Origin: Oceanicoccus sagamiensis
GTDB taxonomy: Bacteria > Pseudomonadota > Gammaproteobacteria > Pseudomonadales > Dasaniaceae
DNA: 64,000 bases
Direction of reading: 5' to 3'
Assembly (NCBI RefSeq): GCF_002117105.1
Contig: NZ_CP019343.1
Location: 310,001 to 374,000 of the forward strand
Notes under the pieces: generated by a model
What the model was told of the DNA's origin: nothing
The model's input: the letters and a program-made list of their open reading frames with translations, nothing else
The model's database searches: none
In this document: one piece after another, positions 23,489-27,455 of the stretch
How the letters are laid out: every line of letters starts with the position of its first letter
Position numbering within the stretch: the first letter of the stretch is position 1
Made by a program: the position numbers and the translations under genes

Positions 23489-25186
23489 ATGAAGCAGCTA
23501 TCAGCAGTCGACGCCGGATTTATCTTTAACGAAACCCCTACCGCCCCCCAACATATTGGCGGCCTAGGCATTTATGACCCCTCTACCGCCCCCGGCGGCA
23601 AAGTTCGTTTTAAGCAGATTATGGAAAACACCTTAAAGCGTAAGCACCTGGCGCCATTGATGCGCCAGCGCTTAGCTGAGGTGCCCTTTAATGCCGACTT
23701 TCCTTATTGGATTAATCAAGAGAGCTTTGACCCGGAATTTCATATTCGCCATATTTCTTTACCGGAACCGGGTGATTGGCGCCAACTCTGTATTCAGGTT
23801 GCCCGCATTTATGCTCGCCCATTAGATCGCAATAAACCGCTGTGGGAAATGTATGTCATTGAAGGCCTGGATAATGTCGAAGGTATTCCCAAGGGCTGCT
23901 ATGCCGTTTTAACCAAGGTCCACCACGCTTGTATCGATGGCACTATGTCCAGCGATATTGGCGCAGCCTTTGCCGACCTGGAACCGGTACCCGATGCCAG
24001 CCGTGTCCCCCCTCCCGGCCCCTGGGATATTGATAAAGACCCCACCGATGCCGAGCTACTAGGCATGGCTAATTTTAATAACCTAACCAAACCGCTACGT
24101 TTTTTGGAAACCCTGGGCGCCACTGCACCTAAAGTTCAAGAAGCTCTGGCCATGTTAAGCGAAGGAAAAATCAAACTGCCTGAGCGCGCACCAAGAACAC
24201 GGTTTAACGGAACCGTTAGCAGCAGCCGGGTATTTGAAGGTGTGCAATTTGATCTGGATACTATTAAGCAAATTAAAAATGCCGCAGGCGGTACCGTCAA
24301 TGATGCCATGCTGGCTATTTGCAGCGGGGCGATGCGTAATTATTTGCTGGAAAAAGATGAGCTACCCAGCCAATCACTGGTGAGTATGTGCCCGATTAAT
24401 ACCCGCTCGGCAGCCGTTGATCCCGGCCATACCGAAACCGGTAACGATGTCTCCTCAATGTCTGTAGCGTTAAGAACCGATATTGCCGATCCTAAAGAGA
24501 GAATGCTGGCCATCTGCCAGGAAACCCGCAGCGCAAAAGAATTAACCGCCGCCATTGGCGCAAAAACCATGCTGGAATATTCTCAGTATATGCCCACCAG
24601 CCTGACCTCTTTAGGGGCCAAGTTAGCCGCGGAGCAAGGTTTGGCCAATCATATGGACCCGGTTTTTAATACCGTAACCACCAATGTACCGGGGCCACCG
24701 ATTCCGCTTTATAGCAATGGCGCTCATTTGGTGACCAGCTTTGGTCTGGGTATTGCTCAGGATAGCTGCGGCTTGTTTCATTCAATCAGCAGTTACTGTG
24801 GCCAGGCCACTATCGGTGTCACCTCTTGCCGCGAAATGATGCCGGACCCTGCCCATTACGCGGATTTATTACGCGAATCACTCGCAGAATTAGTCGCGGT
24901 TTTTTTAGCGCCGCAACCCACCGCACAAAAAAAGACCAGCAAAGCAAAAGCCACGCCAAAGAAAGCTAAAGAAACTGTGAAAAAGACCAAAGCGCCCGCT
25001 ACTAAAGCGAAGAAAAAAACCGTTAAATCAGAGTCTGAAACCCATAGCGCTAAACCTGCCAAAACGAAAAAAAAGGCGGCTAAAAAAACAACAAAGAAGA
25101 AAGAAGATCAATCATCTCTCTTTGACAATGTGAATGGCGTTACGCAGAATGAGGATAGTTCGCCAGATAATACCGAGCTCCATTAG
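23489..25186 (+). CDS. Wax ester synthase/diacylglycerol acyltransferase with a lysine-rich, H1-like tail
   Basis: 565 residues; the family is usually about 450-480. The catalytic motif HHACIDG is at residues 145-151, preceded by KVHH and followed by the usual C-terminal domain (NVPGPPIPLY, VTSCREMMPDP). These enzymes join acyl-CoA to fatty alcohol or diacylglycerol, making wax ester or triacylglycerol inclusions on the inner membrane. Residues from about 480 to 546 are almost all Lys, Ala, Thr and Pro, rich in KAK/TKKK repeats, like the tail of the phasin PhaF or histone H1, then an acidic end. The tail is absent from typical members. Start ATG at 23489; preceded by the XRE regulator, followed by the lipase with no terminator between. 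Confidence 0.95.
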   Translation: MKQLSAVDAGFIFNETPTAPQHIGGLGIYDPSTAPGGKVRFKQIMENTLKRKHLAPLMRQRLAEVPFNADFPYWINQESFDPEFHIRHISLPEPGDWRQLCIQVARIYARPLDRNKPLWEMYVIEGLDNVEGIPKGCYAVLTKVHHACIDGTMSSDIGAAFADLEPVPDASRVPPPGPWDIDKDPTDAELLGMANFNNLTKPLRFLETLGATAPKVQEALAMLSEGKIKLPERAPRTRFNGTVSSSRVFEGVQFDLDTIKQIKNAAGGTVNDAMLAICSGAMRNYLLEKDELPSQSLVSMCPINTRSAAVDPGHTETGNDVSSMSVALRTDIADPKERMLAICQETRSAKELTAAIGAKTMLEYSQYMPTSLTSLGAKLAAEQGLANHMDPVFNTVTTNVPGPPIPLYSNGAHLVTSFGLGIAQDSCGLFHSISSYCGQATIGVTSCREMMPDPAHYADLLRESLAELVAVFLAPQPTAQKKTSKAKATPKKAKETVKKTKAPATKAKKKTVKSESETHSAKPAKTKKKAAKKTTKKKEDQSSLFDNVNGVTQNEDSSPDNTELH

Positions 25187-25243
25187 AGGCTCGGTTATCA
25201 CCAATAATCACAACCAACAATCATAAGAAAGGCTAAAATAATA

Positions 25244-26023
25244 ATGACGAAAACCCAGATTAGTGAACAGGAAAAACCTAACGATTTTTTGTTTTACAGC
25301 GAAGGTATCCGCGCCATGGGCGAGATGATGTCGCTACCCTTTTCACTACCGCTGTTGCGTCTTGCTCCCAAAGGTGATGGCCACACCGTAATGATTATCC
25401 CCGGCTTTACCGCCGATGACGATTCCACCCTATCACTAAGACGCTTTCTCTCCGATATGGGCTATGACGTTCATGGTTGGGGACTCGGTGTAAATAAGGG
25501 TGCCAGAGAAGAACTCTTTCGGCTGTGTGCTGAAAGGATTGAAGCACTCTATAAAGAGAGCGGTCAAAAAATCACACTGATAGGTCAGAGTCTTGGGGGT
25601 ATTTATGCCAGAGAACTGGCAAAGTTAACGCCTTATATTCGACAGGTTATTTGCTTAGGCAGCCCCGTTGACCGACGCAATGGTGACGGCTCTCGTATTA
25701 GCGCGCTGTATGAATATATGAACCGCGAATATATGGCTGACTTTGACAATGAGTTCCTTGAGCAAACAGCTACTGCCCCTGATGTCCCTTGCAGCATGGT
25801 ATATAGCCAGTTAGATGGTATCGTACATTGGTCAACTTGCCGCCAGAATAAGCCCAGCGACTGTGCTGAGAATATTGAAGTCTATAGCAGCCACAGCGGT
25901 ATGGGATTTAGCCCTGCCATTTATTATCTATTAACCGATCGGTTGGCCCAGAAAGAAGGAGAATGGAAGCCCTTTAATTCGCCACTATGGCTAAAAGGTG
26001 CATTTCCTGAACATCTGCACTAG
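25244..26023 (+). CDS. Alpha/beta-hydrolase (lipase/esterase-like)
   Basis: 259 residues. Nucleophile elbow GQSLGG with Ser116, oxyanion region VMIIPGFTADDDS, and a C-terminal histidine (HSGMGF, His217); SQLDGIVHW supplies an acidic residue. It has no signal peptide, so it is probably cytoplasmic and could hydrolyse stored lipid, esters or lyso-lipids. It lies 57 bases after the wax ester synthase with no terminator, and ends at a shared bidirectional terminator before phaR. The specific substrate is not known. Confidence 0.85.
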   Translation: MTKTQISEQEKPNDFLFYSEGIRAMGEMMSLPFSLPLLRLAPKGDGHTVMIIPGFTADDDSTLSLRRFLSDMGYDVHGWGLGVNKGAREELFRLCAERIEALYKESGQKITLIGQSLGGIYARELAKLTPYIRQVICLGSPVDRRNGDGSRISALYEYMNREYMADFDNEFLEQTATAPDVPCSMVYSQLDGIVHWSTCRQNKPSDCAENIEVYSSHSGMGFSPAIYYLLTDRLAQKEGEWKPFNSPLWLKGAFPEHLH

Positions 26024-26033
26024 GGTGCAGCTT

Positions 26034-26066
26034 AAAAAAAGGGGGCTTAATAGCCCCCTTTTTTTA
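26034..26066. terminator. Bidirectional terminator between the lipase and phaR genes
   Basis: Stem GGGGGCT/AGCCCCC with TAAT loop (26041-26058), A7 on the left and T7 on the right, so it works on both strands. The phaR stop codon lies inside the T run. Confidence 0.9.
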
Positions 26067-26471
26067 AAACTTTGGCAGTGAATCAAGATACTTTTTCAGC
26101 AAATCTTCTGCCGTGGGAATACCAGGACTAGAAAACTGTTTAAGGTGTGAGCGAACTTTATCCTGCTCTTTTAAGAAGGCAAGAATCTGCTGCTCTATCA
26201 GCGGGCCTATCACGGTTGCAAACTGATCACCGTAAAAACGAATTAACTCCTCCAATATACGATTGGTCAATAATGACCGCTGCCCTTCAGATTCCAGCTC
26301 CGTGACTATCTGCATTAAAGTCCCGCGGGTTAAATCATCCCCGGTTTTACTATCCACCACCTGAAAGGGTTCATAGTTCAACACCATTTGCCGTACATCC
26401 TCTAATTTGATGTAAGCACTGGCCGAAGTATCGTAAATACGGCGGTTGGGATATTTCTTCAGAATTTTCAC
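26064..26471 (-). CDS. phaR: PhaR, polyhydroxyalkanoate granule regulator
   Basis: 135 residues from the GTG at 26471, which has AAGG seven bases upstream; longer readings to 26546 begin in poorly coding sequence. KYPNRRIYDTSASAYI at the N-terminus is the hallmark PHB/PHA accumulation regulatory domain; the C-terminal part (LLTNRILEELIRFYG) is the second conserved block. PhaR represses phasin genes and leaves DNA to bind nascent PHA granules. The gene is divergent from two phasins whose promoter carries twin palindromes, so it very probably controls them. Confidence 0.93.
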   Translation of the reverse strand: MKILKKYPNRRIYDTSASAYIKLEDVRQMVLNYEPFQVVDSKTGDDLTRGTLMQIVTELESEGQRSLLTNRILEELIRFYGDQFATVIGPLIEQQILAFLKEQDKVRSHLKQFSSPGIPTAEDLLKKYLDSLPKF

Positions 26472-26546
26472 TTTTGAGCCCTTGAGTAAAGTGGCGCGAT
26501 TATAGCCCAGCCAAATACCCCTAGATACAGGAAAAATATTGCGCAA

Positions 26547-26614
26547 TGCGTCATAATATTTTGCATTTGCACCAAATATTTTAAAATATGTTTAATTATC
26601 AAATACTTATATTA
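26547..26614. other. phaR-phasin spacer, left part
   Basis: AT-rich. Contains TTGCGC and TTTGCA-type half-sites near the phaR start, which could serve autorepression, but none forms the perfect palindrome seen further right. Confidence 0.35.
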
Positions 26615-26629
26615 TTGTGCAAAGCACAA
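26615..26629. promoter_or_regulatory. Operator palindrome 1 (TTGTGC-N3-GCACAA)
   Basis: TTGTGCAAAGCACAA, perfect, eight bases upstream of the -35 box. Probable PhaR binding site. Confidence 0.75.
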
Positions 26630-26636
26630 AAAAAGC

Positions 26637-26665
26637 TTGACACCCTTTCCTATCATCCCTAATAT
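26637..26665 (+). promoter_or_regulatory. Consensus sigma70 promoter of the phasin genes
   Basis: TTGACA (26637-26642), 17-base spacer, TAATAT (26660-26665). Predicted start near 26672, giving a leader of about 50 bases. Confidence 0.85.
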
Positions 26666-26675
26666 ACGCCTCATG

Positions 26676-26690
26676 TTGTGCAGCGCACAA
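26676..26690. promoter_or_regulatory. Operator palindrome 2 (TTGTGC-N3-GCACAA)
   Basis: TTGTGCAGCGCACAA, perfect, just after the predicted transcription start. Its centre is 61 bases from palindrome 1, about six helical turns, so the two could be bridged by a PhaR tetramer or dimer pair. Confidence 0.75.
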
Positions 26691-26720
26691 ATTTAATTGA
26701 AACGCTTACCGGAGCTCACC

Positions 26721-27089
26721 ATGAACAACTTTGAAGAGATTACTACAGCCATTCAGTCACTGTCTGACAATCAGGCCAAATCTGTTGAGCTACAAACTGC
26801 TTATTACACCGACCTTGCCAAGCAAGTCACTGACAGCGCTACTGAGCTGGCTGAGCAAACTCGCAACCACCTTGAAGAGATTGCTAAGGCAACCACCTTT
26901 AGCGGCGCCTTTGCAGCCAATATTAAATTTGAAGATAGCATTAAAGCCAAAGTAAGCGGCTTTTACCAAAGCAATGCTGACGCGACTAAAACGCTGGTCG
27001 AAGAGATCACTAAGTTATACAGCGCTGAAACAGCTGAAGCTCCCGCCGCTACAAAAGCCCCTAAGGCTGCCAGCAAAAAAGCGGCTTAA
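26721..27089 (+). CDS. Phasin family protein (first)
   Basis: 122 residues from the ATG at 26721 (GGAG upstream at 26711). All-helical: FEEITTAIQSLSDNQAKSVELQTAYYTDLAKQ and repeats typical of phasin_2, then the KVSGFYQSNADATKTLVEEITKLY block. Ends with a short basic KAPKAASKKAA tail. Phasins coat PHA granules. Downstream of the twin operators; a second phasin follows by 58 bases. Confidence 0.88.
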   Translation: MNNFEEITTAIQSLSDNQAKSVELQTAYYTDLAKQVTDSATELAEQTRNHLEEIAKATTFSGAFAANIKFEDSIKAKVSGFYQSNADATKTLVEEITKLYSAETAEAPAATKAPKAASKKAA

Positions 27090-27146
27090 TTTTTCTGCCC
27101 TTCCCGCGCAGGCGGGAATGACAAACAACCACAAAAGGTAACGATC

Positions 27147-27455
27147 ATGAGCGAATTAGACAACGTAAAAGAATTTATTGAACAAGCTGTAGAAACTAAC
27201 ACCAAAGCCGTTGAAATGCAGATGAGCTTCTACGAATCATTTAGCCGTCGTCAAGGTGAAGCCATGGCCAAGTTAGCTGACCAGCGCATCGACAGCCTAA
27301 AAGAAATTGCCAACTGTGGCAGCTTTGAAAAAGCGATTGAAACTAACACGGCTTTTGAGCAGCAAGCTAAAGAAAACCTTGAAGCTCTATTTAATAGCAA
27401 TGTTAAAGCCTTTGAAGAATTTTCTGACTCTTTAAAAACTGTTTACACCGTCTAG
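27147..27455 (+). CDS. Phasin family protein (second)
   Basis: 102 residues, all-helical and close in pattern to the first (MSELDNVKEFIEQAVETNTK, SFYESFSRRQGEAMAKLADQ), but without the basic tail. Has its own AAAAGGTAACG ribosome binding site. A GC-rich hairpin (CCCGCGCAGGCGGG) sits between the two phasin genes at about 27102-27115, and a strong terminator follows. Confidence 0.85.
   Translation: MSELDNVKEFIEQAVETNTKAVEMQMSFYESFSRRQGEAMAKLADQRIDSLKEIANCGSFEKAIETNTAFEQQAKENLEALFNSNVKAFEEFSDSLKTVYTV

Follow-up and report, generated by a model that had tools for sequence, protein, structure and literature searches.

Why should an enzyme that makes storage lipid end in a tail resembling that of histone H1? 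The question is raised by the window analysed here, a stretch of 64,000 nucleotides from the genome of Oceanicoccus sagamiensis (NZ_CP019343.1, positions 310,001 to 374,000), where a wax ester synthase of the WS/DGAT family lies close to genes for PhaR and two phasin-like proteins. An earlier note on this DNA had likened the tail to that of PhaF and suggested that the enzyme itself could link nascent inclusions to the nucleoid. The features that matter for this question are collected in Table 1.

Table 1. Features of the WS/DGAT locus (positions within the window)
Feature	Position	Strand	Remarks
WS/DGAT ORF	23489-25186	+	ATG start, 565 aa
WS/DGAT core, residues 1-472	23489..24904	+	Pfam/NCBIfam; invariant HHxxxDG; 6chj and 7nxg match in sequence and fold
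Basic tail, residues 475-541	24911..25111	+	25 Lys in 67 residues, no Arg, net +20; ten-residue mean pLDDT <60 from residue 481
Acidic/neutral end, residues 542-565	25112..25183	+	Net -5; QSSLF (QxxLF pentapeptide, 541-545) spans junction with basic part
Alpha/beta hydrolase, PGAP1-like, putative lipase	25244..26023	+	Pfam
PhaR, divergent	26064..26471	-	Scores above the cut-offs of TIGR01848 and PF07879; start placed by inspection at a GTG (26471), mechanical ORF to 26546
Two exact TTGTGCnnnGCACAA palindromes	26615-26629, 26676-26690	.	61 bp apart, between phaR and phasin A
Phasin-like protein A	26721..27089	+	Phasin_2 E 0.033, below cut-off; no Pfam hit at 1e-3
Phasin-like protein B	27147..27455	+	Phasin_2 E 1.1e-4, 22.8 bits against a cut-off of 24.9 (below)

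The catalytic part is readily recognized. Pfam places WS_DGAT_cat at residues 4-273 and WS_DGAT_C at residues 318-468, both above cut-off, the NCBIfam model TIGR02946 spans residues 4-470 with 413.6 bits (cut-off 309.95), and membership in the WS/DGAT family (TIGR02946 / PF03007 + PF06974) holds over both domains. The HHxxxDG motif, reported as the active-site motif of these enzymes (PMC2667194), is represented by H145, H146, D150 and G151, invariant in all 42 aligned rows. The nearest solved chains, 6chj from Marinobacter aquaeolei (455 residues) and 7nxg from Acinetobacter baylyi (463 residues), have the same fold and core, matched to query residues 468 and 465, respectively, and lack a long tail. 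Judged by its sequence the gene product has an ordinary WS/DGAT acyltransferase core, with putative wax ester or TAG synthase activity. No other PF03007 match occurs in its genome, a single contig of 4.47 Mb, and a Pfam search of the protein found no PF05597 phasin domain.

What follows the core is less ordinary. Because the TIGR02946 match ends at residue 470, the family model leaves about 95 residues uncovered, within the excess of 85-100 residues that the earlier note had given. Residues 473-565 (93 residues) include K25 T13 A12 S8 P6 E6 D4, with KAK three times, TKKK twice and KPA once, which agrees with its account of a Lys/Ala/Thr/Pro-rich tail with KAK and TKKK repeats. The limits of that tail have to be redrawn: the basic stretch placed at 24925-25130 is real, but the tail is bipartite, and its acidic end continues past 25130 to the stop codon. 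Regular tandem repeats of the KPAA type are absent from the window's tail; repeats of the KKAPA type were seen by eye in the relatives L082, L103 and L114. AlphaFold2 gives a confident core to about residue 473 (last helix 454-473) and a pLDDT below 50 at residues 494-497 and 506-565, and the tail is accordingly predicted to be disordered. It is a strongly positive, K/A/P/T-rich and, by prediction, disordered C-terminal stretch of the PhaF/AlgP/H1-like type, a likeness of type and not of descent.

Several proteins with tails of this type have been studied. The C-terminal moiety of PhaF was reported to bind DNA (PMC3574117; PMC5658603), and in Pseudomonas putida the disordered, Lys/Ala/Pro-rich part of PhaF is described as being followed, as here, by an end without basic residues (PMC3574117); there, however, the tail is carried by a phasin, whereas here it belongs to the lipid-making enzyme of a genome in which no PHA synthase was found. 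Actinobacteria have MLDS/TadA/HBHA, neutral-lipid droplet proteins with a Lys-rich C-terminus, which in MLDS was reported to bind DNA, binding being abolished by K-to-E substitution, and to tie droplets to DNA (PMC5504291); these are separate droplet proteins, while the window's tail sits on an acyltransferase. In Pseudomonas aeruginosa, AlgP ends in an H1-like K/P/A-rich tail reported as required for the normal number and even spacing of storage granules (PMC9239181), but its N-terminal part is different and the granules consist of polyP instead of lipid. WS/DGATs with a C-terminal addition occur in Bacteroidota too, the addition being described as an SCP-2 lipid-transfer domain (PMC10351704) in contrast to the basic tail found here.

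Composition can be compared more closely. We set the best 60 residues of the long tails in 44 WS/DGAT rows against eight long PF05597-type phasin tails (ten stretches fetched). The K/R content is 0.33 versus 0.26 per residue, the net charge 0.29 versus 0.26 and the share of hydrophobic or aromatic residues 0.02 versus 0.01, a likeness in charge that is partly built in, because K/R content selected both sets. Ala and Pro are scarcer in the enzyme tails than in those of the phasins, whereas Ser, Thr and Arg are more frequent. In the window's own tail K amounts to 0.42, T to 0.17 and A to 0.18, against K 0.26 and A 0.51 in the eight phasin tails.

By analogy with these proteins, we propose that the tail is a polyanion-binding tether, like those of PhaF, AlgP and MLDS, that would hold the synthase and nascent inclusions at the nucleoid, and we give this reading a probability of roughly one half. 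The tail would bind polyanions non-specifically, chromosomal DNA first, as the C-terminal tails of the three model proteins do; once bound, it would keep at the nucleoid both the enzyme and the growing neutral-lipid inclusion that the enzyme bears; and the tethering would space the inclusions and share them among daughter cells. The DNA binding, the nucleoid tethering and the effect on inclusions are all putative. The tethers formed by PhaF, PhaM, MLDS and AlgP are described as separate adaptor proteins. If the enzyme carries its tether itself, the positioning of inclusions would be built into their synthesis, and this would offer an easy means of adjusting how many inclusions form, and how large, in producers of wax esters and TAG.

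A lipid-making enzyme could equally need a membrane anchor, and this is the main rival, ranked after tethering at the nucleoid: the polybasic tail would bind anionic phospholipid, in the inner leaflet or in the droplet monolayer, and recruit the acidic core to its substrates. Bacterial neutral-lipid bodies begin at the plasma membrane. The contrast in net charge between the core (-12) and the basic stretch (+20) would suit such an arrangement, as would the Lys-rich C-terminus of HBHA, reported as needed for lipid inclusions and for binding phosphatidylinositol lipids (not neutral lipids), even though the methylated form alone bound these phosphoinositides (PMC6176652). An anchor would be less at ease with the scarcity of hydrophobic and aromatic residues (0.00 in the window's best 60, a mean of 0.02 over the 44 rows), and with the tailless paralogues, which have to reach the same kind of substrate. 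We hold membrane anchoring to be possible, though rather unlikely.

How common is the tail? We counted as tailed any protein with a low-complexity stretch of 40 residues, at least 25% of them K/R, inside its last 110 residues. Relatives were gathered within the same order, where 148 of 390 genomes had a match, and ten further loci were taken from a genome collection. Up to three candidates were scored per genome in the order survey, and loci were drawn from among the matches listed; nearly all were taken, those left out including G166:C45, G232:C1:3308096, G292, G327, G023:C6:105861 and G171:C2. The 169 loci gave 171 rows, and after one open-ended, one partial and 20 identical-core rows had been dropped, 149 remained. 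Such a stretch was found in 77 of these 149 distinct WS/DGATs (the window's included). A softer measure, a tail of at least 20 residues with a net charge of at least +6, whose background was uncounted, finds 91 of the 149. Elsewhere the stretch is rare: among 210 ORFs of at least 100 aa in the window's own genome (200 kb plus the window) the WS/DGAT alone has it, and the three cases among 232 neighbouring ORFs in relatives all look, by eye, like spurious frames. A sample taken across the phylum had a WS/DGAT match in 42 of 398 genomes, and among the matches listed nine of 33 rows were tailed by the softer measure, in families f50 (same class) and f84 (another class); the 33 rows include three of the congener G235 and several of the same order, none of them among the nine. 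The basic tail is thus widespread and variable among the WS/DGATs surveyed, and missing from both solved enzymes. Our search of the open-access literature, whose coverage left subscription journals mostly outside, found no description of a basic tail on WS/DGATs. The homologue search that the earlier note had proposed shows the tail to be common, and many relatives run on in frame from the same end of the core into a tail of this kind, so that the reading frame is sound and a frame error near residue 480 is ruled out.

The history of the tail is restless. A tree of 148 cores built with FastTree (one short-core row omitted) has several long branches, and on it the tail label switches at least 21 times. 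The clade of the window's gene (12 rows, support 93) has a basic tail in 11, the exception being a protein of the same genus, while 49 members of one 56-row clade are tail-positive, 36 of them with a long basic tail (at least 60 aa, net at least +10), some with KKAPA-type repeats. In such comparisons the tails diverge far faster than the cores: L052 and L055 share 45% identity in the tail and 94% in the core. We then asked of 27 non-overlapping pairs, chosen for a tailed starting member with the partner's tail ignored, whether the partner's net positive charge exceeded at least 95% of point-mutation simulations. It did in 15 of the 25 pairs simulated; the other ten were within drift, among them L148/L130, where the charge is gone (net -1). 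In two of the 27 pairs the partner was tailless, one of them (L167) being a shortened ORF whose core match stops early. Because the simulation has no term for repeat slippage, which can preserve composition absent selection, the retention of charge supports selection and does not prove it. The tail tends to hold its charge even as its sequence changes, and is therefore likely to have some function. This function is dispensable, considering the number of switches on the tree and the WS/DGATs read in the congener G235, five of which lack a basic tail (two at L062, three at L249), the sixth having a tail of 24 residues with net +4 (L077). These points, and the pairs within drift or with the tail lost, weigh against the tether.

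The same data bear on another rival, that of a neutral low-complexity extension, functionless and propagated by slippage when A-rich codons are replicated. The DNA coding for the tail has four A7-A8 runs; these, the rapid change in sequence and length, the repeated switches of state and the pairs within drift or with the tail lost would all be expected of it. They have to be weighed against the rarity of the tail in the sampled genome, the charge retained in the majority of the simulated pairs and the one-sided sign of that charge: among 98 tails of at least 30 aa, 80 have a net charge of +5 or more, 16 lie between and two are at -5 or less. We consider it improbable. Less credible still is a tail that binds other polyanions (polyphosphate, RNA) or clusters the enzyme electrostatically with no nucleoid role, the similar tail of AlgP, needed for the spacing of polyP granules, being the point in its favour (PMC9239181).

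What would be the cargo? The window's genome yielded no PF07167 match, its best TIGR01836 score was E 0.005, with 16.5 bits against a cut-off of 365.3, and PF05597 phasins had no match at E 1e-3. With PhaR and two phasin-like proteins beside the enzyme in a genome that yielded no PHA synthase, the window's inclusion would be one of neutral lipid. Related loci (window 23489-27455; L057 2498-7274; L248 6810-11739; L249 5318-12561) help to place this arrangement. In the congener G127, phaC, phaR, two phasins and a depolymerase follow one another, and no WS/DGAT was matched. G235, another congener, combines a class III-like PHA synthase pair, whose PhaE-like member falls just short of its cut-off, and PhaR with a WS/DGAT, a phasin and a hydrolase inside about 7 kb. 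G297, of another family and with no PhaC_N match, lines up a WS/DGAT, a hydrolase, a phasin-like ORF (judged by eye), PhaR and one more hydrolase. In the window's genome and in the distant G297, where PhaR and phasin-like genes are kept without a PhaC_N match, the WS/DGAT thus occupies the place expected of PhaC, and a PHA-type locus has apparently been turned over to neutral lipid. A homologue of the hydrolase directly adjoins the WS/DGAT in L053, L057, L058 and L060. Among surveyed genomes a PhaC_N match occurs in seven of 58 with tailed and ten of 18 with untailed enzymes (Fisher p 0.0004; confounded by ancestry).

PhaR itself is found in three of the ten genomes searched in the family (the window's own, G127 and G235), and a tie between the tail and the PhaR locus is unsupported: PhaR was matched in only one of 25 loci read in relatives. 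At that locus, L057, a WS/DGAT with a non-basic tail of 22 residues stands beside a phasin-like gene and PhaR, which counts against tethering. A search of the 25 loci with the window's two phasin-like proteins alone returned no phasin, but is too weak for counting, because it missed the phasin-like ORF seen by eye in L057. PF05597 was matched in 151 genomes, 20 of which, mostly ones that also had a surveyed WS/DGAT, supplied a better sample of 20 phasins: 15 have the tail as defined above, three a short K/A-rich end and two neither. Many of these genomes carry basic tails on both enzyme and phasin.

With these counts the earlier proposal can be sorted. It was right that neither adjoining phasin has a full tail, A having an A/K/P end of some 20 residues and B no basic tail, neither with the stretch counted above. 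Its picture of a tail special to this gene gives way before the 77 tailed enzymes, the idea that the enzyme's tail stands in for a missing phasin tail is unsupported when most of the phasins sampled from relatives are tailed too, and PHA granules as cargo do not suit a genome in which no PHA synthase was found. Of the PhaF-like reading, composition, predicted disorder and charge retention remain; gene-specificity and phasin replacement are left unsupported. Transfer of the tail from phasin to enzyme is likewise ruled out as a general rule by the tailed phasins, although the window alone would fit it. A polyanion-binding tail of the PhaF/AlgP kind still fits best with what was found: the composition, the predicted disorder, the rarity in the sampled genome, the charge kept by most of the simulated pairs (15 of 25) and the tails of the relatives' phasins.

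Neutral-lipid synthases, then, repeatedly end in a basic tail. Should this prove to be a tether, its kind would be familiar and its place on the enzyme new. A bolder and only tentative extension would be that in many Pseudomonadota a WS/DGAT with an H1-like DNA-binding tail itself does the tethering, nucleating neutral-lipid inclusions at the chromosome that are segregated along with it and need no separate adaptor of the PhaF or MLDS type, such an enzyme having replaced PhaC beside the retained PhaR and two phasins in the window's genome. Genomes with tailed and tailless paralogues make an enzyme-borne tether directly testable: in 17 of the 46 genomes where at least two paralogues were surveyed, a long-tailed WS/DGAT coexists with a tailless one.

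The distribution of long tails (at least 60 aa, net at least +10) over genomes might have seemed to say more. They occur in 40 genomes, 37 of which have exactly one such enzyme; seven of the 40 have a single surveyed WS/DGAT. Exactly one is found in 30 of the remaining 33 and two in the other three, where shuffling the labels over proteins leads one to expect 19.6 and 6.0; three or fewer genomes with two long tails turned up in 140 of 2000 shuffles. In 19 of the 30, moreover, a shorter basic tail is present on another paralogue. A single tailed isoform per genome is a pattern that exceeds chance only weakly, and it carries no weight here.

The very ends of the tails deserve a comment. Twelve of 79 tails have VV[PSA][LI] close to their end, against 0.5 expected by shuffling; the carriers of this short motif (L091, L095, L102, L105, L106, L112, L115-L118, L131 and L155) are mostly related proteins. 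An ending of the PKL type was noticed by eye in L082, L098, L101, L103, L108 and L114. Both motifs are conserved ends behind the variable basic parts of WS/DGAT tails. After the window's basic part comes QSSLF (25109-25123), and L139, of the same family, ends in QGDLF. This QxxLF pattern, found in two of the 79 tails of at least 40 aa against a shuffled mean of 0.03 (a post hoc and weak count), is reminiscent of the bacterial sliding-clamp-binding motif.

Finally, the palindromes between phaR and phasin A may be, as a guess, a candidate operator for PhaR. The two exact copies of TTGTGCnnnGCACAA are the only ones in the genome. With one mismatch the genome has seven sites, against 11 for a reversed control pattern, and with two mismatches the window has three, against 3.5 expected; these searches show no excess, which leaves the two exact copies as the sole notable sites. 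A looser pattern, TGCNNNGCA, occurs 13 times in a congener's locus, L248, against 7.8 expected, a number reached in 14 of 200 shuffles.
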